Positions 13,391 to 42,475 of a stretch of DNA of 64,000 nucleotides are shown here, piece after piece (positions within the stretch are counted from its first letter, which is position 1; each line of letters opens with the position of its first letter). This stretch comes from an uncultured Clostridia bacterium (GTDB taxonomy: Bacteria; Bacillota; Clostridia; TANB77; CAG-508): positions 18,469 through 82,468 of the forward strand of contig CALXXZ010000007.1 in NCBI GenBank assembly GCA_944392805.1. Direction: 5' to 3'. Under the pieces are notes generated by a model that was not told the origin of the DNA, did no database searches, and was given only the letters and a program-made list of their open reading frames with translations. A program made the translations under genes and the position numbers.

Positions 13391-13484
13391 GGTCTGTCCC
13401 AAAATTGCCAAAAGGGAAAAAAGGGGACAGTCCCCAAATTACCAAAAAGGAAAAAAGCGGACTGTCCCCAAATTTCCCAGAATG
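13391..13484 (+). repeat. Palindromic GGGACNGTCCC repeat array, 34-bp period
   Basis: Three units with the core CTGTCCC or CAGTCCCC recur every 34 bp, joined by AAATTNCCAAAAGGGAAAAAA-type spacers that are themselves conserved. It begins immediately after the TGA stop of the 767-residue gene and ends just before the era ribosome binding site. The unit is related to arrays at 35372 and 47725. Confidence 0.85.
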
Positions 13485-20957: not shown

Positions 20958-20972
20958 AAATGGAGGAAAATA

Positions 20973-23127: not shown

Positions 23128-23138
23128 AGAGGTAAAGT

Positions 23139-24119: not shown

Positions 24120-24124
24120 AAGGG

Positions 24125-25780: not shown

Positions 25781-27731
25781 ATTAATAACAGTAATAATAC
25801 CATGTTACAATATAGAAAAATATATAGAAAGATGTATAGAATCAATAGAAAAACAGACATATAAAAATATTGAAATAATTGCAGTAGATGATGGATCAAA
25901 AGATAATACTGTATCAATATTAGAAAAATTACAAAATAAATATTCTAATCTAAAAGTTTTCAAAAATGATAAAAATAAAGGTGCAGCTTATGCAAGAAAC
26001 TTAGCAATAAGAAAGGCTAAAGGAGAATTTATAGGATTTATAGATTCTGATGACTACATTGTAGAAGACTATTATGAAAAACTTATGCAAAAAGCACAAG
26101 AAGAAGATGCTGATTTAGTAGCAACAGATATAGAGATAACATATGAAAAAAATGCACACCCAGCAATACTTTCAAAAGCTTGTATAGGAGAAGTTAACAA
26201 GTTCAATTTAGTAAATAATGGACTTGCTGCTTCACCATGTAATAAAATATTTAAAAAAGAGTTACTAAAAAAATATCCGTTTTTGGAAGGAAAAATTAAT
26301 GAAGATGTTGCATCAATATTACCTGCAATAATAAATGCTAAAAAAGTAGCATATGTAGATGGGATTAAATATTTCTATATGCAAAGAGAAAATTCAGTAC
26401 AAAATGAAGAAGTATCAATAAAAAGGCTAGAAATGTTTGATTCTATTGCAACATGTTTTCAAAGAATTGAATATGACAAAAAATATATAGATGCAATATT
26501 ATATCAACAAGTATTATTATTGTATTTAGTAGTAATTCCAAAACAAAAAAACTACAAAAAAAGACAAAAATTATTAACTAGATTTATGGAAAAACAAAAA
26601 AAATATGAACTATATAAAAATCCATATATCAAACAATTTATAAAAGAGCAACCAAAACAAGAAAGAAAATTTTATAAAGATATGGTATCATGCTTAAAAA
26701 GAGCAAATGCAACACTTGCAAATGAAACTATTGAATATAGATATGGAATGGACAAAACAAAAGAAAAACTAAAAGATATTATCAGAAAGATTACAAAAAG
26801 AACAGTAATAAGAAGATATATCGAAATAAAAGACCTAGAAAAATTAGCTAAAAAACAAGCTAAGAAAAAAGAAGATATAAAAGTTTCAGTAGTAATACCA
26901 AATTACAATTACGAAAACTTCATGTTACCTCGTATATATAGTATATTAGCACAAACAGAAAAAGTACATGAATTAATAATATTAGATGATTGTTCAAAAG
27001 ATAATAGTAGAAATCTAATAGATCAGATAGTAGAAAGACTATCACCATATATAAAGATTCAAAAAGTATATAATGAAGAAAATTCAGGATGTGCATTTAA
27101 ACAATGGAAAAAAGGATTTGCATTAGCTGAAGGAGATTATGTATGGATAGCTGAAGCGGACGATTGCTGTGACAAGACTCTATTAGAAAATATAATAAGA
27201 CCAATTAAACAAAACAAAAATATATACATATCATACGCAGATACAGCATTTATAAATGCGTGGGATAAAATAATATTACCAACAATAAAACCAGAAATAG
27301 ATATAAGAAAAACTGGTCATTGGGATAGTGACTTTGTAGATAATGGAATGGAAGAAATCAAAAATTATACATTTTTAAATTGTATAATTGCAAATGTATC
27401 ATCATGTATAATCAAAAAAGATAATTATGACGATATTTTTGAAAAAATAATTGAATATAAACAAGCAGGAGATTGGTTATTCTATGTAAGTGTAATGGCA
27501 AAAGGAGATATTGCATTTTGTAATAAACCATTAAATTATTACAGATTACATGGAAATAATGTAACAAGTGTAACTAAGAAACAAAAACACTTTGATGAAA
27601 TTGTAAGAATTCACGGAGAAATAAGAAAAATGTTTGAAATGACAGAATGGCATGAGGAAGAAATTCAAAAAAGATATGAATTCTTAAAAAGAGTATGGAA
27701 CTTAGGAGAAAAAGAGAATGAAAAAGATTAA
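25773..27731 (+). CDS. Double-domain family 2 glycosyltransferase
   Basis: A 652-residue protein with two GT-A domains. The first (about 4-225) has VIIPCYNIEKYIERCI, VDDGSKDNT and DSDDYI; the second (about 365-600) has VSVVIPNYNYENFM, LDDCSKDNS and AEADDCC. A basic helical stretch joins them. Two active sites suggest transfer of two different residues or formation of two linkages in a repeat unit. It overlaps the upstream gene by 8 bp and the downstream gene by 14 bp. Confidence 0.9.
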   Translation: MDKLITVIIPCYNIEKYIERCIESIEKQTYKNIEIIAVDDGSKDNTVSILEKLQNKYSNLKVFKNDKNKGAAYARNLAIRKAKGEFIGFIDSDDYIVEDYYEKLMQKAQEEDADLVATDIEITYEKNAHPAILSKACIGEVNKFNLVNNGLAASPCNKIFKKELLKKYPFLEGKINEDVASILPAIINAKKVAYVDGIKYFYMQRENSVQNEEVSIKRLEMFDSIATCFQRIEYDKKYIDAILYQQVLLLYLVVIPKQKNYKKRQKLLTRFMEKQKKYELYKNPYIKQFIKEQPKQERKFYKDMVSCLKRANATLANETIEYRYGMDKTKEKLKDIIRKITKRTVIRRYIEIKDLEKLAKKQAKKKEDIKVSVVIPNYNYENFMLPRIYSILAQTEKVHELIILDDCSKDNSRNLIDQIVERLSPYIKIQKVYNEENSGCAFKQWKKGFALAEGDYVWIAEADDCCDKTLLENIIRPIKQNKNIYISYADTAFINAWDKIILPTIKPEIDIRKTGHWDSDFVDNGMEEIKNYTFLNCIIANVSSCIIKKDNYDDIFEKIIEYKQAGDWLFYVSVMAKGDIAFCNKPLNYYRLHGNNVTSVTKKQKHFDEIVRIHGEIRKMFEMTEWHEEEIQKRYEFLKRVWNLGEKENEKD

Positions 27732-29826
27732 CTTATGCTTATTAATATTAATACTATTATTAACACAAGTAGTAATATGTGACAATTTAATATATTTCTT
27801 TAAAGCAAATTATATTATAGGAAACATAATAGCATTAATTATAAATGCAACAATTACAACACTATTAATAAAAAAGAAAAAAATAAAAGTTGAAACTAAC
27901 TTTCATAAATTTGATTTAGTATTTTTAGCAATAATAATTGTAATAATGGGATTAACAATAATATATCCAGATACATTTTGGGATACATATAGTTATCATT
28001 TATATTTACAAGAAAATCCATTTGCAGATAAAATAAATGATGATTTCTTTCCAGGAAGAACATTAACATCATTTGTTTATCCTATTGCAGATAGAGTATT
28101 TTATATGTTTAGAGCATTACTAGGATTTAGATTGGGAACTTTACCTGGATATTTTCTAATTGTTGTAATTTATTATCAAATCAAAAAATATTTAACAAAA
28201 ATATTAGAAAATAAAATTGATGAAAAATATATTTCACTACTATCAATTTTACCACTAGGTGTATTTATAATATTAGAGCAAATGGGAACATATTATATAG
28301 ATAATTTTTCTGTTGCATTATTACTTGAAATTATGTATGTAATATTTTTTGAAGGAAAAGATATTTTCAAAGAAAAAACTAGATTGTATATTTTAGCATA
28401 TGTGGTAGGTTTGGCTGTATGTACCAAAATAACAAATGCAATATATATTTTAGGACCATTGGTATATTTACTAGTGATAAATATAAAAGATATAAAAAAT
28501 ATCAAAATATATGATTATTTATTATTAGTTGTAACATTTGTGATACCATTATTACCATATGTACTAGATGCATTTATACAGACAGGAAGTCCAGTATTCC
28601 CATATTATAATGGAATATTCAAATCAGAATATTTTATGCAAGAAAATTGGGTTGATGATAGATATGGACCAAAAAATATATTAGAATTTTTATTATGGCC
28701 ATTGTATATTATAAAAAGACCTAGAAATGCTTATGAAACAGGAAACACAGACTTAATGTTTGCAGTTGGATATATAATAGCTATAATTGGTATAATATAT
28801 GAAGTTGTATATAAAAAACTAATAAAAAAACAACAAATTAATAAAAAATTCTTAACATATTATATTGCACTAATGTATTTGTATTTAGTTTGGGCACAAT
28901 TTATAATAGGTTATACAAGATATGCAGGAATAATACCAATATTTGCAAGCATAGCATGTATTTATATATTAATAAATGCATTTAAAAATAGTAAATTAAT
29001 AATAACTGTATTGATGTCAGCAATAATATGTGGAAGTTCATTTGCAGGATTATATAAATATGTAGTATATGGTAGAAGCGGAGGAAACTATATACAAATA
29101 TTTTTCAATAATTCACAATCAGCAATAGCAAACTGGAAACAAAATGTAAAGAAAACAGTATTATTAAAAGATAGAACAAATGAAAAATATGATATTGATG
29201 GAATTTGGGGAGTTTTAGCAGATGACAGTGGTGTAACATCATTACTTAATGTTGATGATAGACTAGTTGAATTACAAACAGGAACTAAAATGGGTAAAAC
29301 TGAAAAAACTTATCAAATGTATTGGGATTTAATACTAAATAATGAAATCTATATGCCAATATATGAATTTAAATTAAAAGATACATTAGATTACTTAAAT
29401 AGATATCATTTCCAAATTACCGAAGTAGTAGATACTCTTACAAATGTTAGCTTTTTAGATAATGCTGATTATATTTATATAGTAAAAGTAAAATATGATG
29501 AAAATGCACAAAATACTTTGGATATGTTAACATATGATGAAAATGAATTAATTTTAACACCTGAGAATGGAAAAATAAGTTTTATAACTACAATGAATGG
29601 AAGACATTTAAATAAAGATATACAAAATACTATTACAGTTAATATAGTAGCTTCTAAAGATGGACAAGAACAAATAATTGATACATTAAAATTAAAATCA
29701 GATGGAAAATCAATTAATTATGAGAAAAAACTAGATGGAATAGATTATGATACAATAAAAGTTAAATTAGTACCAGAAGAGTTAAAACTAAGCACACAAA
29801 ATCATAGCATTACAATTTTTAAGTAG
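27718..29826 (+). CDS. GT-C-like integral membrane glycosyltransferase
   Basis: A 702-residue protein with about 11 membrane helices in the first 450 residues and a soluble C-terminal part of about 240 residues outside the membrane. The first long loop carries Asp-rich TFWDTYSYHLYLQENPF, the position of the catalytic Asp in GT-C enzymes that use polyprenyl-phosphate sugars. This would place its chemistry on the outer membrane face. The polyprenyl-phosphate sugar synthase-like gene at 29846 could supply the donor. It could instead be a polymerase; no definite family is recognised. Confidence 0.7.
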   Translation: MKKINLCLLILILLLTQVVICDNLIYFFKANYIIGNIIALIINATITTLLIKKKKIKVETNFHKFDLVFLAIIIVIMGLTIIYPDTFWDTYSYHLYLQENPFADKINDDFFPGRTLTSFVYPIADRVFYMFRALLGFRLGTLPGYFLIVVIYYQIKKYLTKILENKIDEKYISLLSILPLGVFIILEQMGTYYIDNFSVALLLEIMYVIFFEGKDIFKEKTRLYILAYVVGLAVCTKITNAIYILGPLVYLLVINIKDIKNIKIYDYLLLVVTFVIPLLPYVLDAFIQTGSPVFPYYNGIFKSEYFMQENWVDDRYGPKNILEFLLWPLYIIKRPRNAYETGNTDLMFAVGYIIAIIGIIYEVVYKKLIKKQQINKKFLTYYIALMYLYLVWAQFIIGYTRYAGIIPIFASIACIYILINAFKNSKLIITVLMSAIICGSSFAGLYKYVVYGRSGGNYIQIFFNNSQSAIANWKQNVKKTVLLKDRTNEKYDIDGIWGVLADDSGVTSLLNVDDRLVELQTGTKMGKTEKTYQMYWDLILNNEIYMPIYEFKLKDTLDYLNRYHFQITEVVDTLTNVSFLDNADYIYIVKVKYDENAQNTLDMLTYDENELILTPENGKISFITTMNGRHLNKDIQNTITVNIVASKDGQEQIIDTLKLKSDGKSINYEKKLDGIDYDTIKVKLVPEELKLSTQNHSITIFK

Positions 29827-29845
29827 ATTTATTAAGGAGGAAAAA

Positions 29846-30772
29846 ATGTCAAAAATAGCAGTATTAATACCATGTTATAATGAAAGCAAAACAATAGAAA
29901 AAGTAGTAAAAGATTTCAAAAGAGAATTACCAGAAGCAGACATATATGTTTATGACAATAACTCAACAGATGGAACAGATGAAATAGCAAGAAATGCAGG
30001 AGCAATAGTAAGATATGAATATAGGCAAGGAAAAGGAAATGTAATTCGCAGTATGTTTAGACAAATAGATGCAGACTGCTATTTAATGGTAGATGGAGAT
30101 GACACATATCCAGCAGAAGATGCAAGAAAAATGTGTGATTTAGTATTAGAAGGAAAAGCAGATATGGTAGTAGGAGATAGATTATCTTCAACATATTTTA
30201 CTGAAAATAAAAGACCATTTCATAATTTCGGAAATAGAATAGTAAGATTTTTGATAAATACATTATTTAAGAACAAAATAAAAGATATAATGACAGGATA
30301 TAGAGCATTTAGTTATGAATTTGTAAAAACATATCCAGTATTATCAAAAGGATTTGAAATAGAAACAGAAATGACGATACACGCAGTAGACAAAAACTTT
30401 TTAATACAAGAAATACCAGTAACATATCGTGACAGACCAGAAGGAAGTGTATCAAAATTAAACACATATAAAGATGGATTTAAAGTATTAAAAATGATAG
30501 CGACATTATTTAAAGAATATAAGCCATTCTTTTTCTTCAATATTGTAGCAATAATACTTGCAATAATTTCACTTATATTTGTAATACCAGTATTTCACGA
30601 ATATTTTGAGACAGGACTTGTATTAAGATTTCCAACTTTAATAGTTGGAGGCTTCATAATGGTAGCTGCAATATTATCATTTATATGTGGAGTAATATTA
30701 GATGTAATTGTAAAAAAACACAAACAACAATATGAATTAATGTTAAATCAATTCAAGAGAAATGAGGATTAA
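29846..30772 (+). CDS. Polyprenyl-phosphate glycosyltransferase (DPM1/GtrB-like)
   Basis: A 308-residue GT2 enzyme. The soluble domain shows VLIPCYNESKTIEKVV, YDNNSTDGTDEIA and MVDGDDTYP (DxD), together with the GYRAF and RPEGSVSKL motifs typical of DPM1/GtrB. Two C-terminal membrane helices (about 230-255 and 265-290) anchor it. Such enzymes transfer a sugar from a nucleotide to undecaprenyl phosphate, feeding GT-C enzymes on the outside. Candidate users in this operon are the products of 27718 and 30774. A strong AAGGAGG precedes the ATG. Confidence 0.92.
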   Translation: MSKIAVLIPCYNESKTIEKVVKDFKRELPEADIYVYDNNSTDGTDEIARNAGAIVRYEYRQGKGNVIRSMFRQIDADCYLMVDGDDTYPAEDARKMCDLVLEGKADMVVGDRLSSTYFTENKRPFHNFGNRIVRFLINTLFKNKIKDIMTGYRAFSYEFVKTYPVLSKGFEIETEMTIHAVDKNFLIQEIPVTYRDRPEGSVSKLNTYKDGFKVLKMIATLFKEYKPFFFFNIVAIILAIISLIFVIPVFHEYFETGLVLRFPTLIVGGFIMVAAILSFICGVILDVIVKKHKQQYELMLNQFKRNED

Positions 30773-30773
30773 A

Positions 30774-32300
30774 ATGGAAAAAGTATTAAAGAAAATAGTA
30801 AGTTGTAGAATATTATATTATACTGCAGCAATAGTACTATTAATGGGAACATATTATCTTGATCTAAAAGTAGACTTAGAAAGTCAAAATGCATTAGGAG
30901 GAAACCATTTAAAATATTTCTTAATAGCTGCAGTATTAATTGGAATAGTAATAATAGCACTAACAATAATTTCAAAAAAATTATATAAAAAAGTAGAAAT
31001 GCATATTGCATATATTATACTTGCACTTATACTTGGTGGAATATACATATTTGTAATTCCACTATTTGCTCAAAGTGATGAACCTGCACATTTTTATAGA
31101 ACATATCAAGTAGCAAAAGGTGAAATAATTTCTCCAGTAATAGACAATGCATATGCGACAGAAATACCACAATCATTTGTAGATATGGTGCAATATAATA
31201 GTGAAACAAAAAGAAGAGAATATAAAAAATATTATGATGTAAAAGAAATGATGCAAATTGAGCTAAAACCAGAAGAAACAACAATAATAGATACAGTTGG
31301 TAATTATCATGGTACAAGCTATTTACCACAAGCACTTGGAATAAAAATCGGAATGATATTTCAATTAAGACCATATTTGACAGCAATGTTAGGACGTCTT
31401 ACTGGTTTAGTGATTACAGTATTATTATTAGGTTGGGGAATTAAAAAATTACCAAATCATAAATTATTTGCAACAATAGTATTGTTATCACCAGTTGCAA
31501 TATCATATGCAGCAAGTTATTCAGCAGACAATGTACTACTTACATGTATATTCTTAATGTTAAGTTATGTAATGCATTATAGATATACAAAAGAAAAAAT
31601 TAAAAAAATAGATTATGTCATATTTGCAATTCTTACATTTATAATTGCAATATCAAAAATGGCATATTTACCAGTAATAGGATTATTACTATTAATACCT
31701 AAAGAATGTTTTAATAATACAAAAAGAAAATGGGGATTTTCTGCAATATTCATAATATTAGGTATAATATCAGCAATATGGTGGATGAAAACTGCAAATA
31801 TCAATGTAAATGTAGGAGAAGCAACAAATACAAATACATGGATTTATACAAATCCAATAGGATATCTATTTGTACTATTTAGAACAACAATAGATTCATG
31901 TTTTGATTATGTAGCAAATATGTTTGCAGGACATTTCTTATGTCATAATCAAGTATCACCATATACAATAATACCACTTGCATATATTATCATTACAATA
32001 ATTGCATTATTAAGTGATGAAAATAAAGAAAAAACAACATTTATGCAAAAATTTATTCCAGTTGGAATAATAGTATTATCATATGTATTAGTAAGTACAG
32101 CAATGTATGTATATAATACAAGTTTCAAAAATGGAGTAATTATAGGAGTACAAGGAAGGTATTTTGTACCATTACTATTACTTGCAATGTTATTTATAAA
32201 TAAAAAACGAATTAATATAGAAGGACATGAATTAACAAATGTATCACTAATTGCAAACTTCGGTGTATATTTAGCAATGATGGCAACATTCTTTATATAA
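30774..32300 (+). CDS. DUF2142 membrane protein
   Basis: A 508-residue protein with about 11 membrane helices. The outer loop FAQSDEPAHFYRTYQVAKGEI is the DUF2142 signature; it resembles GT-C catalytic loops, and DUF2142 proteins are common in surface-polysaccharide loci. The start is placed at 30774 rather than the in-frame ATG at 30762, because ATGAGGATT supplies the GAGG ribosome binding site for 30774; the stop of the upstream gene is at 30770-30772. It is likely a glycosyltransferase or polymerase using lipid-linked sugars. Confidence 0.8.
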   Translation: MEKVLKKIVSCRILYYTAAIVLLMGTYYLDLKVDLESQNALGGNHLKYFLIAAVLIGIVIIALTIISKKLYKKVEMHIAYIILALILGGIYIFVIPLFAQSDEPAHFYRTYQVAKGEIISPVIDNAYATEIPQSFVDMVQYNSETKRREYKKYYDVKEMMQIELKPEETTIIDTVGNYHGTSYLPQALGIKIGMIFQLRPYLTAMLGRLTGLVITVLLLGWGIKKLPNHKLFATIVLLSPVAISYAASYSADNVLLTCIFLMLSYVMHYRYTKEKIKKIDYVIFAILTFIIAISKMAYLPVIGLLLLIPKECFNNTKRKWGFSAIFIILGIISAIWWMKTANINVNVGEATNTNTWIYTNPIGYLFVLFRTTIDSCFDYVANMFAGHFLCHNQVSPYTIIPLAYIIITIIALLSDENKEKTTFMQKFIPVGIIVLSYVLVSTAMYVYNTSFKNGVIIGVQGRYFVPLLLLAMLFINKKRINIEGHELTNVSLIANFGVYLAMMATFFI

Positions 32301-32327
32301 TTTATTTGTAGCGAGAGAAGGGATAAA

Positions 32328-34181
32328 ATGAAATTAACAAACATAAAAAATTCTATCATAAATTTTTTAGCACCAATTGGAAGTATTAGAAGAAAATCAA
32401 TTCAATATATTTACAGAATGTTAAAAAATAAAGAAAATAGAAAAATGTTTAGCAAAAAAGTAAAAGAAATAGGATTTTTTAATGGGTTTAAATATTCATT
32501 TTATAAATTAGTAGTACCAGAAAGTAAAGAATATCAAGAAGAAAGATATAATAACTGGATTTCTAAGAAATCTAAAATAGAGGAAAATGCAAAATTCGAG
32601 TATAATCCATTAATAAGTATAATAACACCATTATATAATACTCCTAAAGAGTTTTTCTTAGAATATATAAAAAGCATGAATAGGCAAACCTATGAAAATT
32701 GGGAGGTTTGCCTTGTGGATGCAAGTGACTCACAATTAGAATATATAAAAGAAATACAAGATGAGAGGATAAAATATAAAAGATTAGAAGAAAATAGAGG
32801 AATATCAGAAAACTCAAATGAAGCAATTCAAATGGCTACAGGAGAATTTATAGCATTAGTTGACCATGATGATATAATTTCGCCAAATGCACTTTATGAA
32901 GTTGTAAAAAGATTAAATGAAAAACCTGAAACAGATTTTATATATAGTGATGAAGATAAATTTGAAGAAGATGTTGGAAATAGATTTTATCCATTTTTCA
33001 AACCAGATTTTTCACCAGACTTTTTAAGAAGTAATAATTATATATGTCATTTAAGTGTAATAAGAAAATCTTTAGTTGAAAAAATAGGAGGATTTAGAAA
33101 AGAATTTGATGGTGCACAAGATTATGACTTAATATTAAGGGTTACAGAAAATACAAAAAAAATAGAACACATCCCAGAAATATTATATCATTGGAGAATT
33201 CATTCAGCTTCAACTGCTCAAAATATGGAAACTAAAAATTATGCAATAGAAGCGGGAAGAAAAGCCATTGAAGAACATTGTAAAAGACTAGAACTTCCTA
33301 TTGAAAAAGTAGAAAGCATAGAACCATTGGGATTATATAGAACTAAATATAGTGTAGTAGGAGAACCTTTGGTATCAATAATAATACCAAATAAAGACTC
33401 TGTAAAATACTTAAAAAGAGCAATAAATTCAATTTTAAAATCTACATATAAAAATTATGAAATTATAATTATAGAAAATAATAGTACTAAAAAAAGTACA
33501 TTCAAATATTATGATGAAATAAAATCATTTGCTAAAATTATAAAATATGAAGGAGAATTTAATTATTCAAAAATAAATAATTTTGGAGTTAAATATGCAA
33601 ATGGAGAATATTTGTTATTACTTAATAATGATATAAAAGTAATAACAAATGATTGGCTTGAAGAAATGCTATCAATATGTCAAAGAGAAGATGTTGGAAT
33701 AGTTGGAGCAAAATTACTTTATAGTGATAAAACAGTTCAACATGCAGGTGTTGTAGTTGGAATGGGCGGAATTGCAGGACATGTAAACAGATTAATTGCT
33801 GATAAAAATCCAGGTTATTTCGGAAGAGTTGCTGTAATTAATAATTATTCAGCAGTAACTGCTGCTTGTCTTATGACCAAAAAAGACTTATATGAAAAAG
33901 TAGAAGGACTTGACGAAAAATTCAAAGTAGCATTTAATGATGTAGATTTTTGTATGAAAATACGTCAGCTTCAAAAATTAATTGTTTATACACCTTTTGC
34001 TAGATTATTTCATTATGAATCTAAATCAAGAGGTTATGAAGATACACCAGAAAAATTAGAGAGATTTAATGGAGAAATTAAATTGTTTGAAAGTAAATGG
34101 AAAGATGAATTGGAAAAAGGAGATCCTTATTTTAATCCAAATTTAGATTTATATTCAGAACAATGTGAGGTGAAGATATGA
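32328..34181 (+). CDS. Double-domain family 2 glycosyltransferase (RgpF/rhamnan type)
   Basis: A 617-residue protein. A basic N-terminal helix region of about 80 residues is followed by GT-A domain 1 (about 90-310; IITPLYNTP, DHDDIISP, IYSDEDK) and GT-A domain 2 (about 345-600; IIIPNKDS, LLNNDIKV, HYESKSRG). The tandem layout with a LNNDI motif is typical of GT2 enzymes in rhamnan and O-antigen assembly. The stop overlaps the next start as ATGA. Confidence 0.9.
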   Translation: MKLTNIKNSIINFLAPIGSIRRKSIQYIYRMLKNKENRKMFSKKVKEIGFFNGFKYSFYKLVVPESKEYQEERYNNWISKKSKIEENAKFEYNPLISIITPLYNTPKEFFLEYIKSMNRQTYENWEVCLVDASDSQLEYIKEIQDERIKYKRLEENRGISENSNEAIQMATGEFIALVDHDDIISPNALYEVVKRLNEKPETDFIYSDEDKFEEDVGNRFYPFFKPDFSPDFLRSNNYICHLSVIRKSLVEKIGGFRKEFDGAQDYDLILRVTENTKKIEHIPEILYHWRIHSASTAQNMETKNYAIEAGRKAIEEHCKRLELPIEKVESIEPLGLYRTKYSVVGEPLVSIIIPNKDSVKYLKRAINSILKSTYKNYEIIIIENNSTKKSTFKYYDEIKSFAKIIKYEGEFNYSKINNFGVKYANGEYLLLLNNDIKVITNDWLEEMLSICQREDVGIVGAKLLYSDKTVQHAGVVVGMGGIAGHVNRLIADKNPGYFGRVAVINNYSAVTAACLMTKKDLYEKVEGLDEKFKVAFNDVDFCMKIRQLQKLIVYTPFARLFHYESKSRGYEDTPEKLERFNGEIKLFESKWKDELEKGDPYFNPNLDLYSEQCEVKI

Positions 34182-36181
34182 AAGTTTTACAAATAAATGC
34201 AGTATGTGGAAATTGTAGTACAGGAAAAATAGCAGTAGATTTATATAATGTATTAGAAGAAAATGGACATGAAGGAATAATAGCATATGGAAGAAGAGGG
34301 GCACCAGAAGGAGTAAAAACAATCAAAATATGTGGAAAAATAAACAATCTATTTCATATAGGAATATCTATGATATTTGATAATAGTGCATTTTTATCAA
34401 CACAAGCAACAAAAAGACTAATCAAAAAAATAGATGAATATAATCCAGATATTATACAATTACATAGTCTATTAGGTTATTACATAGATATAAAAGTATT
34501 ATTAGAATATTTAGCCAAAATAAACAAACCAGTAGTATATACAATGCATAATTGTTGGGCAATAACAGGACATTGTACATATTTTGATTATGCAAAATGT
34601 GATAAATGGAAAACTGGATGTGAAAAATGTCCACAAAAAACAACATATCCACCAAGCCTAATATTTGATAATTCAAAAATAAATTATGAAAAGAAAAAAC
34701 AATTATTTAATAATATAAAAAATTTAACATTAGTAACACCATCACAATGGCTTGCAGATTTAGTAAAACAATCATATTTAAAAGAAAAAGAAGTAGTGGT
34801 AATAAACAATGGAATAAATCTTCAAAACTTCAAACCAACAAAAGGTGATTTCAGAAAAAAACATAATATTGAAAATAAATTTATAATACTTGGAGTTGCA
34901 AGTGTTTGGGAGAAAAGAAAAGGATTAGAATCATTTATAAGATTATCAGAAAAGTTAAGTGATGATTTTCAGATTGTATTAGTTGGGTTAAATAAAAGAC
35001 AATTAAAAAAATTGCCTAAAAACATAATAGGAATTTCAAGAACAGAAAATATAGAGCAATTGGCAGAACTTTATACAACAGCTGACATATTTTTTAATCC
35101 TACATATGAAGAAAACTTCCCAACAACAAACTTAGAATCAATAGCATGTGGAACACCAATAATTACATATAAAACTGGTGGAAGTGTAGAAAGTGTTGAT
35201 AAAGAATGGGGATTTGTTGTAGAACAAGGAGATGTAGAATCTGTATTAAAAATTCTTCAAGACTTAAAAGGCAAACCTAAAAAATCAGAACAATGCTTAC
35301 AAGCTTCAAAAAAATATGATAAAAGATTAAAATTTCAAGAATATGTAGAATTATATGAAAAATTATTAAAAGGGAAAAAAGGGGACAGTCCCCAAATTTC
35401 CCAAAAGGAAAAAAGGGGACAGTCCCCAAATTTCCCAAATTCCCAAATTTATGTGGTATCACACAAAGAAGCAGAATTCCCAAAAGAAGAAATATATACA
35501 CCAATACAAGTAGGAAAAAAAGAAAGTTTCACAAAAGTGCGTGATAACACAGGGGACAATATAGCAGAAAAAAATCCTAATTTTTGCGAGCTAACAGCAG
35601 CATATTGGATATGGAAAAATGATAAATCAGATATAACAGGACTTACTCATTATAGAAGATATTTCTTTAAAAAGAAAAATAATAATAGTAAAGAAAACAT
35701 ATTAAATAAGCAAGAAATAGAAGAAATATTAAAAGAATATGATATAATACTACCAGAAAAAGAAAGAATTGTGCAATATACTGTAAAAAGTGCATATGGA
35801 AAATTTCATCATATAGAAGATTTTGAAAAATGTAGAGAAATAATACAAGAAAAATATCCAGAATATGTAGAAGCATTTGATAAAATTGCAAATGGAAAAA
35901 AATTATATTTATATAATATGTTTATTTCTCACAAAAAAATATTTGATGAATATTATAAATGGTTATTTGACATTTTATTCGAATTAGAAAAAAGAGTAGA
36001 TATTTCAAATTATACAGATTATGATAAAAGAATATTTGGATTTTTATCAGAAAGATTATTAAGTGTATGGCTTGAAAAAAATAACCATCTAAAAATAAAA
36101 GAAATGCCAGTATATAATACAGAACAAAAAGTATTACCACAGATAGCAATTAGAACAATACAAAAAATACTTGTCAGATAA
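34178..36181 (+). CDS. GT4 glycosyltransferase fused to DUF4422 through a repeat-derived linker
   Basis: A 667-residue fusion. Residues 1-397 are a GT-B enzyme of family 4: VLQINAVCGNCSTGKIAVDL at the start, a Cys-rich loop CDKWKTGCEKCP, and the donor-site PTYEENFPTTNLESIACG. Residues 424-660 are a DUF4422 domain (IYVVSHKEAEFP, ELTAAYWIWKN, GLTHYRRYFF), itself found as a stand-alone putative glycosyltransferase. The linker, about residues 399-423, is encoded by two copies of the 34-bp palindromic repeat that are read in two different frames. The fusion may have arisen when a repeat array joined two adjacent genes. It overlaps the upstream gene by 4 bp. Confidence 0.85.
   Translation: MKVLQINAVCGNCSTGKIAVDLYNVLEENGHEGIIAYGRRGAPEGVKTIKICGKINNLFHIGISMIFDNSAFLSTQATKRLIKKIDEYNPDIIQLHSLLGYYIDIKVLLEYLAKINKPVVYTMHNCWAITGHCTYFDYAKCDKWKTGCEKCPQKTTYPPSLIFDNSKINYEKKKQLFNNIKNLTLVTPSQWLADLVKQSYLKEKEVVVINNGINLQNFKPTKGDFRKKHNIENKFIILGVASVWEKRKGLESFIRLSEKLSDDFQIVLVGLNKRQLKKLPKNIIGISRTENIEQLAELYTTADIFFNPTYEENFPTTNLESIACGTPIITYKTGGSVESVDKEWGFVVEQGDVESVLKILQDLKGKPKKSEQCLQASKKYDKRLKFQEYVELYEKLLKGKKGDSPQISQKEKRGQSPNFPNSQIYVVSHKEAEFPKEEIYTPIQVGKKESFTKVRDNTGDNIAEKNPNFCELTAAYWIWKNDKSDITGLTHYRRYFFKKKNNNSKENILNKQEIEEILKEYDIILPEKERIVQYTVKSAYGKFHHIEDFEKCREIIQEKYPEYVEAFDKIANGKKLYLYNMFISHKKIFDEYYKWLFDILFELEKRVDISNYTDYDKRIFGFLSERLLSVWLEKNNHLKIKEMPVYNTEQKVLPQIAIRTIQKILVR
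35372..35448 (+). repeat. 34-bp palindromic repeat array inside a coding region
   Basis: Two units with the core GGGGACAGTCCCC (35381 and 35415) and spacer AAATTTCCCAAAAGG lie in tandem, with a partial third spacer (AAATTCCCAAATTT). Because 34 is not a multiple of three, the same DNA encodes KGKKGDSPQISQ in the first unit and KEKRGQSPNFPN in the second, both open. Confidence 0.88.
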
Positions 36182-36202: not shown

Positions 36203-37666
36203 GTGAAAAAAAGCATAGCTAAAAATTACATATACAACTTAATATACCAGATGTTAACTATTGTATTACCATTAATAACAACTCCATATTTATCAAGAGT
36301 ATTAGGAGCAGAAAATATTGGAATATATGGTTATACATTATCAATAGTAACATATTTTGTTTTATTTGGAACTTTAGGAATTGCAATGTATGGACAAAGA
36401 GAAATTGCATATGTTCAAAATGATAAAACAAAACAAAGTAAAACTTTTTGGGAAATAGTGATAATAAGATTTATTACATTATCAATAGCATCACTAACAT
36501 TTTATATTACATTTTGTACAGGAGGAGAATATACAACATATTATACAATCTTATTATTAGAATTATTAGCAAATGCATTAGATATAAGTTGGTATTATCA
36601 AGGAATCGAAGATTTTGGAAAAACTGTAGTAAGAAACCTAATAGTAAAAAGTCTAAGTTTAGTATGTATATTTGTATTTGTAAAAACACAATCAGATTTA
36701 TGGAAATATATGTTGATATATGTATTAGCGAATGTTTTAGGAAATGCAACAATGTGGTTTTATTTACCAAAAATGTTGCAAAAAATATCATTAAAAACAT
36801 TAGAATTTAAAAAACATATAAAACCTGTATTATCTTTATTTGTACCACAAATTGCAACACAAGTATATGTTGTATTAGATAAAACTATGATTGGAAATAT
36901 TACAAATAATATGTCAGAAGTAGGATTTTATGAACAAGCCCAAAAAATAGTAAAAACATTAATGTTAGTAGTAACAGCATTAGGAACAGTAATGAATTCT
37001 AGAATAGCAAGTGCATTTGCAGAAAATAAAAAAGAAGATGTAAAAAAATATTTAATGCAAACATTTAATATTGTATGGTTTTTAGGAATTCCTGCAATGT
37101 TTGGAACAATGGCTGTATCAAGTAAATTAGTACCATGGTTTTATGGGGAAGGATATGAACCAGTTATACAATTATTAATTGCGACAAGTCCAATATTATT
37201 AGCAATAGGATTAAATAATGTAACAGGAATACAATATTTAATTCAAACAAAACAACAAAAAAATTATACTATATCAGTAACAATAGGAGCAATTGTAAAT
37301 GTAATTTTTAATTTAATATTAATAAATTTGATAGGAACAGTTGGAGCAGCAATTTCATCAGTAATAGCAGAATTCACAATATTAGGTGTACATTTTATAT
37401 ATATGAGAAAAGATATAAAGATTTTGGATGTACTAAAATTATCAATAAAATATTTAATAAGTGGACTAATAATGTTTGTAATTGTATGGTATATTACAAA
37501 ATTAATGCCAGTAAGTATATTAAATACAATGATTGAAGGTGCTATAGGAGCTATAATATATTTTGCAATATTATTAATATTAAAAGACAAATTTTTAAAA
37601 GACATAATTAATCAAATAGTTGTAACAGTAAAAAATAAACTAGGAAAGGGAACTGTGAATGAATAA
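36203..37666 (+). CDS. Wzx-type oligosaccharide flippase
   Basis: A 487-residue membrane protein with 12-14 predicted helices of the MOP superfamily. The N-terminus NYIYNLIYQMLTIVLPLITT and PYLSRVLGAENIGIYGY are characteristic of Wzx flippases that turn undecaprenyl-diphosphate-linked repeat units across the membrane. The start is GTG, with GAAAGGA about 12 bp upstream. It overlaps the glycyl radical enzyme gene by 8 bp. Its presence next to an ABC exporter implies two export routes or two polymers. Confidence 0.93.
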   Translation: MKKSIAKNYIYNLIYQMLTIVLPLITTPYLSRVLGAENIGIYGYTLSIVTYFVLFGTLGIAMYGQREIAYVQNDKTKQSKTFWEIVIIRFITLSIASLTFYITFCTGGEYTTYYTILLLELLANALDISWYYQGIEDFGKTVVRNLIVKSLSLVCIFVFVKTQSDLWKYMLIYVLANVLGNATMWFYLPKMLQKISLKTLEFKKHIKPVLSLFVPQIATQVYVVLDKTMIGNITNNMSEVGFYEQAQKIVKTLMLVVTALGTVMNSRIASAFAENKKEDVKKYLMQTFNIVWFLGIPAMFGTMAVSSKLVPWFYGEGYEPVIQLLIATSPILLAIGLNNVTGIQYLIQTKQQKNYTISVTIGAIVNVIFNLILINLIGTVGAAISSVIAEFTILGVHFIYMRKDIKILDVLKLSIKYLISGLIMFVIVWYITKLMPVSILNTMIEGAIGAIIYFAILLILKDKFLKDIINQIVVTVKNKLGKGTVNE

Positions 37667-39680
37667 AATTATAGAACTAATAAAAAAGATAATTAATAAA
37701 AGTGATAAATTATCAAATTTTACAGTAATAGTTTATAAATATAATAGAAAATATAGAAATATGCCAAAAACTCTTTTATTTGCATTAAAAGGAATATTCA
37801 AATTTTATATGCCAAGTACAAAATTATCAAAAGGAATGCAGATAAGAAAATTATTAGAAAAGCTAAAAGTAAAAGGAAATAATGACAAATTTGTATATTA
37901 TATTGACCCATTAAAAATGCTTAATATTAAAAATTTTGCAATTGAGAATACAACAATTGATTATGAAATTGGACTAGAAAAAAGTTTAGAAGATATGCAA
38001 AAAGAAAATGAAAAAATGAAAGATGGAGAATATAAAGAAAACCAAAAACAACTATTATTAGGAATAGCAGAATTAATAGAAAAAGAGAAAAAAGTAGCTC
38101 CAAATGAGGACGTTGCTAAAAATATAGAAAATATTAAAAGTAAAAAAGCTGAAGGATTTCAAGAAGCATTGCAAAGAATATTGTTTTATAATCAAATTGT
38201 ATGGCAGACTGGACATCATTTAAATGGATTAGGAAGACTTGACAAAATTTTAGATAAATATTATAAAAAAGATATAAAAGAAAATAAGATTACAAAAGAA
38301 GATGCACGAAGTTTAATAAATGAATTTATGAAATTGTTACATGAAAACTTTTGGTTTAAAAGTAACGCATTATTAGGTGATACTGGGCAAGTAATAATAT
38401 TAGGGGGAAAAGAGCCTAATGGAGAATACTTTTGCAATGATTTGACATATATGTTTATAGAAGAAATAGAAAAACTTCAATTGCCTGACCCAAAAGTATT
38501 GTTAAGAGTAGCAAAAAATATGCCAAGAGAATTGATGGAAACATCAGTAAAATGTATAAAAACAGGAATAGGATGTCCACTATTTTCAAATGACGAAGTA
38601 GTAATTCCACAATTAATAAATTTCGGATATGATGAAAAAGATACATATAATTATGTTACAGCAGCATGTTGGGAACCATTAATTACAGGAAAATCATTTG
38701 ACCAAAACAATATGAAAACAATAGTATTTTTAAAACCATTTACTGAAATGCTGAATAAAGAAAACTTAGAAGAGATTCATAATCAAGAACAATTAATGGA
38801 AAAATACAAAACTTATTTAGAAAAATATATAAATGAATTTTTTGCTGAATTAGATGGAAGAAAATTTGAAACAGATCCAGTAATGTCTTTATTTATACCA
38901 CATTGTAATAAGGTAGGAATAGATGTTACAGAAGGTGGAGCAATATATAATAATTATGGTGCTACTTCTGTATCACTTGCAAACACAGTAAATGCAATTA
39001 TAAATATAAACAAATTTGTATTTCAGGAGAAAAAATACACATTAAGTGAATTAAATGAACTGCGAAAAAATAATTTTGAAAACAATGAAAATATTCAACT
39101 AAAAGACCAAGGAATCAGATATGGAAAAGATGATGATAATGTATTAGAGATAACAAATACAATTACTAAATGGGTAGATGAAATTTTAAAAGACAAGACA
39201 AATAGAATGGGTGGAAAGTTAAAATTTGGACTAAGTGCACCATCATATATAGATGAATCAAAAGATTTTGAAGCTTCATTAGATGGAAGAAAAAAAGGAG
39301 ATGCATTTATTGTACACATTTCATCAGATATAACATCAAACCCATATACTGAGTTAATTCAATTTGCATCAAAAATAGACTATAGTGGAAATAGATTTAA
39401 TGGAAATGTAATAGATTTCATGGTAACACCAAGTTTTATGGAAAATAATTTTGAAAAATTCACAGACTTTCTAATATTAAGTATAGATATTGGATTTTTC
39501 CAGATGCAGATGAATGTAGTTAGTAGTGAAACATTAATAAAAGCAAAAGAACATCCAGAAGAATTTCCTAATTTAATAGTAAGAGTTTGGGGATTTAGTG
39601 CATATTTTAATGACTTACCAGAAGAATATAAAAATGTGTTAATAGAAAGGGCTTTAAAAAATGAAGGTAAGAGTTACTAA
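37659..39680 (+). CDS. Glycyl radical enzyme of unknown substrate
   Basis: A 673-residue enzyme of the pyruvate formate-lyase superfamily, shorter than most members (about 750-850). The catalytic thiyl Cys337 lies in AACWEPL, and the C-x-E spacing (Glu339) resembles eliminases and dehydratases such as glycerol dehydratase or choline lyase rather than the Cys-Cys of pyruvate formate-lyase. The C-terminal radical loop is RVWGFSAYF with Gly645 as the radical site. A SLDGRKKGD block is also typical. The first 65 residues are basic and atypical. It overlaps wzx by 8 bp and its activase by 20 bp. Its place in a glycan operon suggests radical dehydration or C-X cleavage of a polymer precursor. Confidence 0.88.
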   Translation: MNKIIELIKKIINKSDKLSNFTVIVYKYNRKYRNMPKTLLFALKGIFKFYMPSTKLSKGMQIRKLLEKLKVKGNNDKFVYYIDPLKMLNIKNFAIENTTIDYEIGLEKSLEDMQKENEKMKDGEYKENQKQLLLGIAELIEKEKKVAPNEDVAKNIENIKSKKAEGFQEALQRILFYNQIVWQTGHHLNGLGRLDKILDKYYKKDIKENKITKEDARSLINEFMKLLHENFWFKSNALLGDTGQVIILGGKEPNGEYFCNDLTYMFIEEIEKLQLPDPKVLLRVAKNMPRELMETSVKCIKTGIGCPLFSNDEVVIPQLINFGYDEKDTYNYVTAACWEPLITGKSFDQNNMKTIVFLKPFTEMLNKENLEEIHNQEQLMEKYKTYLEKYINEFFAELDGRKFETDPVMSLFIPHCNKVGIDVTEGGAIYNNYGATSVSLANTVNAIININKFVFQEKKYTLSELNELRKNNFENNENIQLKDQGIRYGKDDDNVLEITNTITKWVDEILKDKTNRMGGKLKFGLSAPSYIDESKDFEASLDGRKKGDAFIVHISSDITSNPYTELIQFASKIDYSGNRFNGNVIDFMVTPSFMENNFEKFTDFLILSIDIGFFQMQMNVVSSETLIKAKEHPEEFPNLIVRVWGFSAYFNDLPEEYKNVLIERALKNEGKSY

Positions 39681-40398
39681 TATTCAAAGATTTTCGCTTC
39701 AAGATGGTCCTGGGATTAGGACTACTGTGTTTTTAAAAGGTTGTAGTATTTGTTGCCCATGGTGTGCAAATCCTGAAAATATAAAATATGAAACTCAAGG
39801 ACAATTTGGATATGATATAGAGTTAGATGAACTAGAAAAAGAAATTCTAAAAGACGAAAAATTTTATAAATTAGGAGGAGGAGTTACATTTTCTGGTGGA
39901 GAACCTTTATTACAATTTGACAGATTAGAACCATTGCTACAAGGACTTAATCAACAAAATATAAATATTTGTATAGAAACAGCCTTATTTGTGCCAACTA
40001 GTTTGTTGGAAATAGCTTTAAAATATGTTGATGAATTTATAGTTGATATTAAAATTTTAGATAATACTGAAGCGAGAAAGGTATTAAATGCTGATATTGA
40101 ATTGTATTATAAAAATATTCAAAAACTTTTTCAGCAAAAACATAATATCACTTTTAGAATACCAGTTACAAAAGAATATACTTTGCAAGAACACAATAAG
40201 ACAAAGATATTAGAGTTACTTGAGAAGTACAAGCCTAAACAAGTTGAAATATTCAAGTTACATAGACTTGCAAAAAACAAATATGAAACTTTGAAAAAAG
40301 AAATGGCTGAATTTCAAGAAGTTACAGATGACGAAATGGAAAATTTCCTAAAAGAAATAAAAAATGTAAAAATAAATGCAAGAATTTGCAAGATATGA
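39661..40398 (+). CDS. Glycyl radical enzyme activase (radical SAM)
   Basis: A 245-residue radical SAM protein that uses a 4Fe-4S cluster and S-adenosylmethionine to place the glycyl radical on the neighbouring enzyme. The cluster motif Cys28-x3-Cys32-x2-Cys35 lies in GCSICCPWC (with an extra Cys31), preceded by FSLQDGPGIRTTVFLKG and followed by FSGGEPLLQ. The ferredoxin-like insert with extra clusters found in many dehydratase activases is absent, so the size matches pyruvate formate-lyase activase. The start is inside the end of the partner gene, so the two are translationally coupled. Function requires anaerobic conditions. Confidence 0.92.
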   Translation: MKVRVTNIQRFSLQDGPGIRTTVFLKGCSICCPWCANPENIKYETQGQFGYDIELDELEKEILKDEKFYKLGGGVTFSGGEPLLQFDRLEPLLQGLNQQNINICIETALFVPTSLLEIALKYVDEFIVDIKILDNTEARKVLNADIELYYKNIQKLFQQKHNITFRIPVTKEYTLQEHNKTKILELLEKYKPKQVEIFKLHRLAKNKYETLKKEMAEFQEVTDDEMENFLKEIKNVKINARICKI

Positions 40399-40408
40399 GA
40401 GGTAAAAT

Positions 40409-41371
40409 ATGGACATATTTGTGAAATTAGAAAAAAACAAAAAATTCATGGAAAAGTATAACAAGTTTAAAAAGAAGAAACAACAAAAAGAAACAAAAAG
40501 AAGAGTAAAAGGAACATACAAATTTGTTGATAGAAAAAAGGATAAGAAAAACTTATGTATCATAATAGCAGGATACAAAAAAATCTTATGGGATGATATA
40601 TTTGGTAGACTTGAAAAATTTATGCCAAAAGATATGGATGTATGTATAGTATCATCAGGGCTATATAATGAAGAACTAGATAAAATAGCAGAAAAAAATA
40701 AATGGTCATACTTAAGTTTAAAACAAAACAAAGTAACATTAGTACAAAATATTGCAATAAATTTACATCCAAAAGCTAAAATGATATATAAGATTGATGA
40801 AGACATATTTATAACAAAAAACTTTTTCTCTAAATTGATGGAAACATATAAAAAAGTCGAAGAAGAAAGTAATTATAGAGTTGGATTTGTAGCACCATTA
40901 TTACCTATAAATGGATATTCAAATGTAAATGTATTAAAAAAGACTAGAACAATAGCTAAATTTGAAAAGAAATTTGGAAAAGCATATCATGATGGTGGAG
41001 GAGAAGAAAAAATAATCAAAAATCCAGAAATAGCAAAATTCATGTGGAAAGAAATAGGACAACTAGATGAACTATCTAAAAGATTTGACCAAGAAGAATT
41101 TGCATATTCAATATGTCCAATAAGATTTAGTATAGGAGCAATATTATTCTCAAGAGACTTATGGGAAGCAATGGGAAGATTTGTAGTTGAAAAAGGAACT
41201 AATATGGGAAGAGATGAAGCACAAATATGTGAATATTGCATGATAGAAAGTAGAGCAATAGTGGTTTCAGAAAATACAATTGCAGGACATTTCTCATATG
41301 GACCACAAACAAAAGCAATGGAAGAATTCTACAATAAAAATAGAAAAATATTTGAATTAAAAGAGGTATAA
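40409..41371 (+). CDS. GT-A-like glycosyltransferase, glycan locus
   Basis: A 320-residue protein. A basic coiled N-terminus of about 45 residues precedes a GT-A-like fold: a LCIIIAGYKKILWDDIF strand-helix, a KIDEDIFITKNFF segment that fits a DxD metal-binding site, and a C-terminal GRDEAQICEYC block. It is less typical than the other GT2 enzymes of the cluster, so the family assignment is tentative. It lies 10 bp after the activase and 3 bp before glf, which places it in the same operon. Confidence 0.7.
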   Translation: MDIFVKLEKNKKFMEKYNKFKKKKQQKETKRRVKGTYKFVDRKKDKKNLCIIIAGYKKILWDDIFGRLEKFMPKDMDVCIVSSGLYNEELDKIAEKNKWSYLSLKQNKVTLVQNIAINLHPKAKMIYKIDEDIFITKNFFSKLMETYKKVEEESNYRVGFVAPLLPINGYSNVNVLKKTRTIAKFEKKFGKAYHDGGGEEKIIKNPEIAKFMWKEIGQLDELSKRFDQEEFAYSICPIRFSIGAILFSRDLWEAMGRFVVEKGTNMGRDEAQICEYCMIESRAIVVSENTIAGHFSYGPQTKAMEEFYNKNRKIFELKEV

Positions 41372-41374
41372 GTT

Positions 41375-42475
41375 ATGAAAAAATATGATTATTTAATAGT
41401 AGGTGCAGGTTTATTTGGAGCAGTATTTGCACATGAAATGAATAAAAAAGGAAAAAAATGTCTTGTAATAGATAGAAGAAATCATATAGGTGGAAATATC
41501 TATTGTGAAAAAATAAATGGAATCAATGTTCACAAATATGGAGCACATATATTCCATACAAGTGATAAAGAAGTATGGGAATATGTAAATCAATTTGCAG
41601 AATTTAATAATTACATAAACTCTCCAATTGCAAATTATAAAGGAGAAATCTACAATTTACCATTTAATATGAATACATTTTCAAAATTATGGGGAATTGC
41701 AACACCAGCACAGGCAAAAGAAATTATTGAAAAACAAAAAGCCGAATATAATATCACAGAACCTAAAAACTTAGAAGAACAAGCAATTTCTCTAGTTGGA
41801 AAAGATATTTATATGAAACTAGTAAAAGAATATACAGAAAAACAATGGGGAAGAGATTGTAAAGATCTACCATCATTTATTATAAAAAGATTACCAGTTA
41901 GATTTGTATATGACAATAACTATTTCAATGATAGATATCAAGGAATTCCAGAAGGTGGATATAATGTTATAATTGAAAAATTATTAGCAGATGCTGATGT
42001 AGAACTTGGTGTTGACTATCTAAAAGAAAAGGATAAATATAATAGCCTAGCTGATAAAATTCTATATACTGGTATGATAGATGAATATTTTGGATATAAA
42101 TTTGGAAACTTAGAATGGCGTTCATTAAAATTTGAAAATGAAGTATATGAAGATATTGATGATTATCAAGGTAATGCAGTTGTTAATTATACAAGCCATG
42201 ATGAAAAATATACTAGAATTATTGAACATAAACATTTTGAATTTAATAAGTGTAAAGGTACAATAATTACTAAAGAATATCCAATGGACTGGAAAATGGG
42301 AGATGAAGCTTATTATCCAGTTAATGATGAAAAAAATAATTCTTTATTTGAAAAATATAGAGAATTAGCTGATAAAGAAACTAATGTTATTTTTGGTGGC
42401 AGACTTGGAAATTATAAATATTATGATATGGATAAAGTTATCAGAGCTGCATTAGATTTAACAAAAACACTTTAA
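41375..42475 (+). CDS. glf: UDP-galactopyranose mutase
   Basis: A 366-residue flavoenzyme that converts UDP-galactopyranose to UDP-galactofuranose, the donor for Galf residues. The FAD-binding YLIVGAGLFGAVFAHE motif, RRNHIGGNIY, and the conserved YGAHIFHTS and GGRLGNYKYYDMD segments are intact. Its presence implies that the surface glycan contains galactofuranose. It is the last gene of the 22-kb locus; a palindromic repeat array begins at the base after its stop codon and may act as terminator. Confidence 0.96.
   Translation: MKKYDYLIVGAGLFGAVFAHEMNKKGKKCLVIDRRNHIGGNIYCEKINGINVHKYGAHIFHTSDKEVWEYVNQFAEFNNYINSPIANYKGEIYNLPFNMNTFSKLWGIATPAQAKEIIEKQKAEYNITEPKNLEEQAISLVGKDIYMKLVKEYTEKQWGRDCKDLPSFIIKRLPVRFVYDNNYFNDRYQGIPEGGYNVIIEKLLADADVELGVDYLKEKDKYNSLADKILYTGMIDEYFGYKFGNLEWRSLKFENEVYEDIDDYQGNAVVNYTSHDEKYTRIIEHKHFEFNKCKGTIITKEYPMDWKMGDEAYYPVNDEKNNSLFEKYRELADKETNVIFGGRLGNYKYYDMDKVIRAALDLTKTL

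Follow-up and report, generated by a model that had tools for sequence, protein, structure and literature searches.

A 64,000-nucleotide stretch of DNA from an uncultured Clostridia bacterium (contig CALXXZ010000007.1, positions 18,469 to 82,468 of the forward strand; hereafter, the window) contains a surface-glycan locus in which the genes for a glycyl radical enzyme (GRE) and a radical S-adenosylmethionine (SAM) activase lie beside the gene for a wzx-type flippase. From our analysis we conclude that this GRE represents a new subfamily, tied strongly and reproducibly to glycan export of the Wzx type. The features of the locus, numbered from the first letter of the window, are as follows.

36203..37666, + strand: wzx-type flippase, 487 residues (Pfam Polysacc_synt, 5e-26)
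37659..39680, + strand: GRE, 673 residues, intact open reading frame (ORF) (Pfam PFL-like, 4.5e-73; Gly_radical, 3.5e-12)
37659..37883, + strand: basic N-terminal extension of the GRE, residues 1-75 (helices 2-11, 15-32 and 35-48 in the model)
37947..37949, + strand: codon of GRE Asn97, in the column of His164 of glycerol dehydratase (GDH) in the profile alignment to 1r8w
38667..38675, + strand: codons of Cys337-Trp338-Glu339, by analogy the Cys of the thiyl radical and the Glu acting as general base
39591..39593, + strand: codon of Gly645, by analogy the site of the glycyl radical, in VRVWGFSAYF
39661..40398, + strand: radical SAM activase, 245 residues, intact ORF (Pfam Radical_SAM, 8e-14; TIGR02494, 206 bits)
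39742..39765, + strand: CX3CX2C radical-SAM cluster motif of the activase, residues 28-35
40409..41371, + strand: glycosyltransferase-like protein of 320 residues (GT320), without a Pfam match of its own
41375..42475, + strand: glf, UDP-galactopyranose mutase (TIGR00031, 427 bits against a cut-off of 304)
20166..36181, + strand: remaining glycan locus (Pfam), with a Wzm-like permease, Wzt with a Wzt_C domain, glycosyltransferases, a methyltransferase-like protein, a DUF2142 membrane protein and a GT4-DUF4422 protein

The start of the GRE gene overlaps the end of wzx by 8 bp, within the last wzx codons, the start of the activase gene overlaps the end of the GRE gene by 20 bp, and a gap of 10 bp separates the activase gene from that of GT320. 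An earlier note, made from the letters of the window, had described a GRE/activase pair that overlaps wzx and lies 10 bp before a glycosyltransferase gene followed by glf, and the ORFs and overlaps were confirmed. The ATG codons of the GRE and the activase are each preceded by a purine-rich stretch. Between the window and a second locus of the same clade (L004; L and G numbers denote our loci and genomes), the ratio of nonsynonymous to synonymous substitution rates (dN/dS) was 0.108 in the GRE gene and 0.117 in the activase gene, values that purifying selection would give. Promoter-like sites numbered 96 versus 86.8 in shuffles and terminator-like sites 6 versus 2.1; one of the latter falls inside the activase gene (39705-39724).

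The window protein is a GRE by its predicted fold, which was judged from the confidence and secondary structure of the model and from Foldseek. With an alignment of 63 GREs as input, AlphaFold2 gave a model with a mean predicted local distance difference test (pLDDT) score of 92.9 and a predicted TM-score (pTM) of 0.93. All 50 Foldseek matches listed were GRE chains, with query TM-scores of 0.72-0.80 and an E-value of 2.1e-36 at rank 1; propanediol dehydratase, PflD, choline lyase and GDH were among the top matches (0.76-0.80). The best-scoring solved relatives in the profile comparison were 8id0 (PflD with 1,5-anhydromannitol 6-phosphate), GDH and propanediol dehydratase. The protein displays the C-terminal RVxG radical glycine, the finger-loop cysteine and the (predicted) barrel fold of the GRE superfamily. 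The earlier note had named Cys337-Trp-Glu339 as catalytic and Gly645 as the radical glycine; these residues were found at those positions, where Cys337, Glu339 and Gly645 line up with their counterparts in solved GREs and occupy columns invariant in 63/63 aligned GREs. The activase exceeds the TIGR02494 cut-off (174.35 bits) and has the characteristics of a GRE activase, and its CX3CX2C motif, also reported earlier, begins at residue 28. With its gene present, the cognate activase is predicted to set a glycyl radical on G645. The ferredoxin-type cluster motif CxxCxxC was found in 0/11 activases of the clade described below, and the window activase is without the ferredoxin-type insert.

The window GRE scored 258 bits against TIGR01774 (PFL2/glycerol dehydratase-type GRE; cut-off, 678.2), and the best NCBIfam equivalog gave 207 bits against a cut-off of 1109. 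No NCBIfam GRE cut-off was reached among the equivalogs tried (PflD, HypD, CutC, HpfG, HpsG, HPAD, indoleacetate decarboxylase and PFL). Membership in a characterised GRE subfamily, a possibility that the earlier note had raised against itself, was ruled out by these cut-offs and by the tree. Outside its own clade, the matches that the class search listed reached at most 35% local identity to the window GRE; for one network, a passage of PMC6386719 describes isethionate lyases as grouped at an identity threshold of 62%.

Clade members were found in 7/210 genomes of the genus sample, 3/195 of the family sample (G000, G120 and G112), 9/385 of the order sample, 3/391 of the class sample (G000, G665 and G433) and 1/299 of the phylum sample, the last being the window's own genome. 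In the class sample, 167 further genomes matched with other GREs. Within the families of G665 and G433, 1/48 and 1/22 genomes, those two genomes themselves, had a member, and L004 and L005 were found as clade loci by contig search. The samples overlap (the match coordinates of L004 are those of the G323 hit, and L005 is G339, with 100% identical proteins), and merging the overlaps left 13 distinct clade loci.

When 63 GREs were placed in a tree, those from 11 glycan loci formed one group with a Shimodaira-Hasegawa-like approximate likelihood ratio test (SH-aLRT) value of 100. This group was sister (SH-aLRT 98) to 22 short GREs (SH-aLRT 100), and the remaining 30 stood apart. Of the 70 GREs longer than 500 residues, 63 entered this tree. 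Left out were L103, L107 and the second GRE in each of five stretches that carry two GRE genes (L067, L076, L086, L090 and L097); L093 also has a second copy, which is cut. Two loci identified at a later point, L170 and L171, appear in none of our trees. Throughout the glycan-locus and sister clades (33/33), the active-site Cys stands in A-C-W-E and a W precedes the radical Gly, a combination seen in 0/30 other GREs in the tree; we refer to the two clades together as the ACWE group.

L062-L078, L081-L083, L088, L094: sister clade, 22 short Clostridia GREs of 649-700 residues

The two clades differ at their N-termini. The first 75 residues of the window GRE contain 19 K/R and 3 D/E, and the 11/11 clade members measured have 16-23 K/R and 2-8 D/E, whereas this part carries little net charge in those sister-clade members that were counted, 11 out of 22 (K/R 9-16, D/E 10-16); these counts use starts called by an ORF script. 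The basic tail would fit docking at an anionic membrane or at lipid pyrophosphate. The earlier note had regarded the enzyme as short with an unusual basic N-terminus. The tail was borne out, but the shortness is not unique, being shared with the sister clade.

The wzx gene directly adjoins the GRE gene in 13/13 clade loci. Among the first 11 of these, a wzx homologue was present in 11/11 and glf in 10/11, the exception being L061, a contig of 4976 bases. L170 and L171, retrieved after the pattern had been noticed, provided an out-of-sample test, and, as predicted, wzx lay directly upstream in both; glf is present in L170 too, and the contig of L171 stops inside the GRE. Excluding L061 and L171, glf was present in 11/11 clade loci long enough to show it. 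The gene order differs in L060 (GRE, wzx, glf, activase). No wzx or glf homologue was detected in 54 control GRE loci (22 sister-clade loci, 31 others and L006) by single-sequence phmmer at E 1e-5 in stretches of ~5-17 kb. For 10 loci, the GRE and Wzx trees had 6/7 splits in common (r 0.92), the seventh being weakly supported in both, and the GRE and Glf trees 4/7 (r 0.69); L061 was left out of this test as a short contig without glf. The GREs nearest to those of L026 and L028, found in L005 and L057, come from other genera, so that the GRE tree departs from genus, and wzx and the GRE therefore appear to travel jointly between genera. The separate cluster with conserved glycan-locus neighbours that the earlier note had asked about thus exists, with an SH-aLRT of 100 and wzx beside every GRE found.

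We also compared 20 GRE-less Wzx loci, picked among the best matches to the window Wzx; six better or equal matches (G114, G107, G108, G110, G126 and the second copy in G044) were skipped, most of them being near-duplicates or lying at contig ends. In the Wzx tree, 10/11 GRE-bearing rows fell into one group of 14 rows (SH-aLRT 99) together with four GRE-less rows, the divergent L061 lying outside. The GRE label required 6 changes on this tree versus 9.2 in shuffles, a number as low being reached in 7/500. L146 is near-colinear with L005, its wzx, GT320 and glf being 73, 68 and 87% identical and in the same order, and it stands without the GRE-activase pair. The pair is thus an optional tailoring module and not part of core assembly.

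In raw counts, glf was found in 13/20 of the GRE-less loci against 11/11 of the clade loci; it is split in two pieces in L154 and L155, and in L145 and L159 little contig is left beyond wzx. The wzx and glf genes therefore go together even where the GRE is missing, and the presence of glf says little in favour of a GRE acting on galactofuranose. Galactofuranose as the specific link was favoured at first, given glf in 11/11, and was downgraded on these grounds and because the Glf tree matches less well. The earlier note was right that glf is a neighbour, but glf is no specific partner of the GRE; the tight partner is Wzx. GT320 itself had no match in the Pfam scan, and its L060 homologue matches Glycos_transf_2 with a score below the cut-off; homologues occur in 4/11 clade loci, including the window, and in the GRE-less L145 and L146. 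Choline or phosphonate decoration as the source of the substrate was rejected, since LicD is found in L057 and L060 but also in the GRE-less L158, L159 and L161. The GRE-bearing locus L060 has, at L060:933-4892, a 669-residue NTP-transferase/CTP-transferase/PEP-mutase fusion, an iron-alcohol dehydrogenase and LicD, a gene set that likely leads to phosphonate decoration of the glycan.

The gene context of the sister clade is different. Its members share the ACWE and R(V/I)WG signature with the window clade, but their neighbours are glycosidases and AraC/LacI regulators, with no wzx. An activase was present in 21/22 sister loci (none was found in L066), and 20/21 of these activases keep the extra CxxCxxC (not L062); for other GREs the motif was found in 26/31 activases. 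Pfam neighbours were tallied over at most 3 genes per side for the sister clade and 2 for the others, taking the commonest 25 of 154 and 157 families, respectively. The 119 sister-clade neighbours (22 loci) included AraC (17), raffinose-synthase-like GH36 (5), LacI (4), and melibiase, GH127, GH4 and GH43 (2 each); the raffinose-synthase-like gene directly adjoins the GRE-activase pair in L064, L065 and L067. The 120 neighbours of other GREs (31 loci) included AraC (12), DeoR (5), alcohol dehydrogenases (5), transaldolase/fructose-6-phosphate aldolase (3) and EIIA of the phosphotransferase system (PTS) (3), with no glycosidase among the commonest 25 families. By its gene context, the ACWE group looks sugar-linked.

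We propose that the window GRE is a strictly anaerobic tailoring enzyme of surface-glycan assembly, which performs a radical elimination on a precursor sugar before flipping by Wzx. We put the probability of this reading at about 0.5. The computations show its groundwork, namely the predicted fold, the catalytic residues, the pairing with an activase, the clade, the lasting link to Wzx and the optional presence of the pair; the radical steps are taken by analogy from characterised GREs, and we infer the sugar substrate, the lipid linkage, the elimination and the product. The earlier note had guessed at a polyol, a sugar or an amino sugar as the substrate. In this scheme, the activase would cleave SAM and place the radical on G645, from which it would pass to C337. 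The thiyl radical would abstract a hydrogen from a carbinol carbon of the glycan-precursor sugar, E339 would accept the hydroxyl proton, and the group on the adjacent carbon would be eliminated. This would leave a keto-deoxy or ring-opened sugar, and the hydrogen would return to C337. The substrate would most likely be polyprenyl-lipid-linked (or nucleotide-linked) and located at the inner face of the membrane, where the basic N-terminus could dock the enzyme, and Wzx would then flip the modified product.

Several points weigh against this proposal. Gene context alone cannot establish the reaction, the substrate, the product or the structure of the glycan, and the basic N-terminus could bind something other than a membrane. 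The pair is missing from L145, L146, L150 and L156 though their Wzx proteins group with those of GRE-bearing loci, and thus flipping does not require the GRE; picking the GRE-less rows among the best Wzx matches also biases the Wzx tree. The loss of CxxCxxC is not specific to the clade, since 5/31 activases of other GREs are without it, and the clade is rare (7/210 genus genomes and 9/385 order genomes). Finally, Asn97 replaces the His found in 29/30 other GREs.

This last column bears on the kind of elimination. His164 of GDH is a proton donor, and its column holds Asn in 32/33 ACWE rows, among them 21/22 sister-clade rows. The dehydratase mechanism is therefore not simply transferable, and plain dehydration cannot be read from the motif. 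The earlier note had pointed to the C-x-E spacing of eliminases and dehydratases; the spacing stands, with C and E in 63/63, but the dehydration does not follow. A comparison of aligned active-site residues with known dehydratases, of the kind that the note had suggested, likewise showed that the GRE fold and the Cys, Glu and Gly are kept and that His164 is not. The exchange suggests a changed leaving group or proton donor. In passages of the isethionate lyase papers, Gln193 of IslA is placed at the sulfonate leaving group in a homology model (PMC6386719), and Gln191 of IseG holds this group in a crystal structure (PMC6453916). The 7kq3 match starts at profile position 104 (residue 197), and an ungapped extrapolation over four residues would put Gln193 in the Asn97 column if no gap intervenes. 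From the Asn/His partition and these glutamines, it could be argued that the ACWE group does not dehydrate at all, Asn97 serving another leaving group such as a glycosyl, ring-ether or phosphate oxygen, with a glycoside being cleaved or opened. We consider this unlikely, because the YbiW/PflD-type enzyme 8id0 opens a sugar ring with His in that column, which speaks against a changed leaving group or proton donor and makes the swap unnecessary, and because the glycan-locus clade keeps His186, aligned with GDH His281 by profile, which could act as an acid.

A different stage of action, with the same chemistry, is somewhat more plausible, though still doubtful: the GRE may act on a free or nucleotide-bound small precursor, such as a polyol phosphate or a nucleotide sugar, that is added to the glycan later. 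Characterised GREs, to which the solved relatives belong, act on small soluble molecules, the nucleotide-sugar gene glf is present in all clade loci long enough to show it, and the sister clade looks catabolic. However, the flippase is kept across genera more than glf is, glf accompanies the Wzx lineage without the GRE too, and the basic N-terminus marks the glycan-locus clade but not the 11 sister rows counted. It is very improbable that the GRE is an ordinary catabolic enzyme and a chance passenger in a variable locus. Glycan loci are hot spots of gene exchange, and closely related loci are without the pair, but the constant adjacency to wzx, by which we regard chance cargo as ruled out, the overlapping genes in the window and the matching GRE and Wzx trees all argue otherwise. 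In addition, no alcohol dehydrogenase, kinase or microcompartment protein was found by Pfam among the 19 window proteins scanned; the alcohol dehydrogenase of L060, beside the PEP-mutase fusion, is a partial exception.

Beyond the tailoring proposal for the window GRE, we tentatively put forward a broader picture that is possible but less than probable. The ACWE GREs may be a family of carbohydrate-active radical lyases with a chemistry of their own, in which Asn takes the place of the leaving-group His. One branch would degrade plant-type oligosaccharides, and the other, equipped with a basic tail for docking at the membrane and with a simpler activase, would remodel lipid-linked sugars before Wzx flipping.

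Known systems offer partial parallels. RmlB-type nucleotide-sugar dehydratases lead to what we propose for the window GRE, a deoxy sugar destined for a surface glycan, but they are NAD-dependent short-chain dehydrogenase/reductase proteins that work in air and have no sequence relation to GREs. The B12-independent glycerol and propanediol dehydratases (1r8w and 5i2g) share the fold (query TM-score 0.78), the catalytic Cys, Glu and Gly, and His186 as His281; the window GRE differs from them in having Asn for His164, C-W-E for C-V-E and RVWG for RVAG, a shorter N-terminal part, and an activase without ferredoxin-type motifs. According to passages of PMC12441222, YbiW and PflD convert 1,5-anhydrohexitol 6-phosphates to 1-deoxyfructose 6-phosphate, and thus GREs that cleave cyclic sugar derivatives exist. 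These enzymes (8id0, 8yjo and 8id7) have the GRE fold, the C-x-E motif and a cyclic sugar-like substrate, and 8id0 is the top solved relative by profile (281 bits). In contrast, they are 20-23% identical to the window GRE and ~90-140 residues longer, 8id0 and 8yjo have His in the Asn97 column, and their catabolic pathway begins with a PTS, as a passage of PMC12441222 describes.

The known roles of GREs lie in fermentation, degradation and nucleotide reduction. The earlier note knew of no established role in glycan assembly, and no title reporting one was among those listed in searches of open-access papers, a result that argues only weakly that no such report exists. A 2024 review of gut metalloenzymes (PMC11574389) likewise uses neither "polysaccharide" nor "glycan" in its main text. 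If the broader picture is true, the glycan branch of the ACWE group would give glycan assembly its first GREs. Through a link between a GRE and a flippase, radical chemistry would enter surface-polysaccharide assembly in anaerobes, and glycan sugars that aerobic pathways do not make would be predicted. Such a link would also open up a set of GREs with ties to sugars that numbers 33 in the tree, and GRE-plus and GRE-minus versions of one locus should allow two glycans to be compared.

Some further observations were made. L101:6183-8774 and L105:4930-7581 encode GREs fused to an N-terminal AraC-type DNA-binding region, possible radical-enzyme regulators. Near the sister-clade GREs, L066:5262-7115 and L072:2976-4859 encode proteins of 617 and 627 residues with similar starts, the former having no match in the Pfam scan. 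GRE matches were also present on plasmids of Moraxella osloensis (NZ_CP024189.1, 11488-13179; NZ_CP024178.1, 50736-52427; AP031477.1, 37780-39471), with an annotated activase under the match in 2/3 records; this organism is aerobic, which makes a plasmid GRE odd. The palindrome GGGGACNGTCCCC, which is REP-like (repetitive extragenic palindrome), occurs in 4 copies in the window versus 0.00 expected and in 34 copies genome-wide, 16 of which form 8 pairs with a spacing of 34 bases. The window sites are at 13423, 42497 and, as a pair, 35381-35427, where the pair falls within the linker between the GT4 and DUF4422 domains of one open gene.

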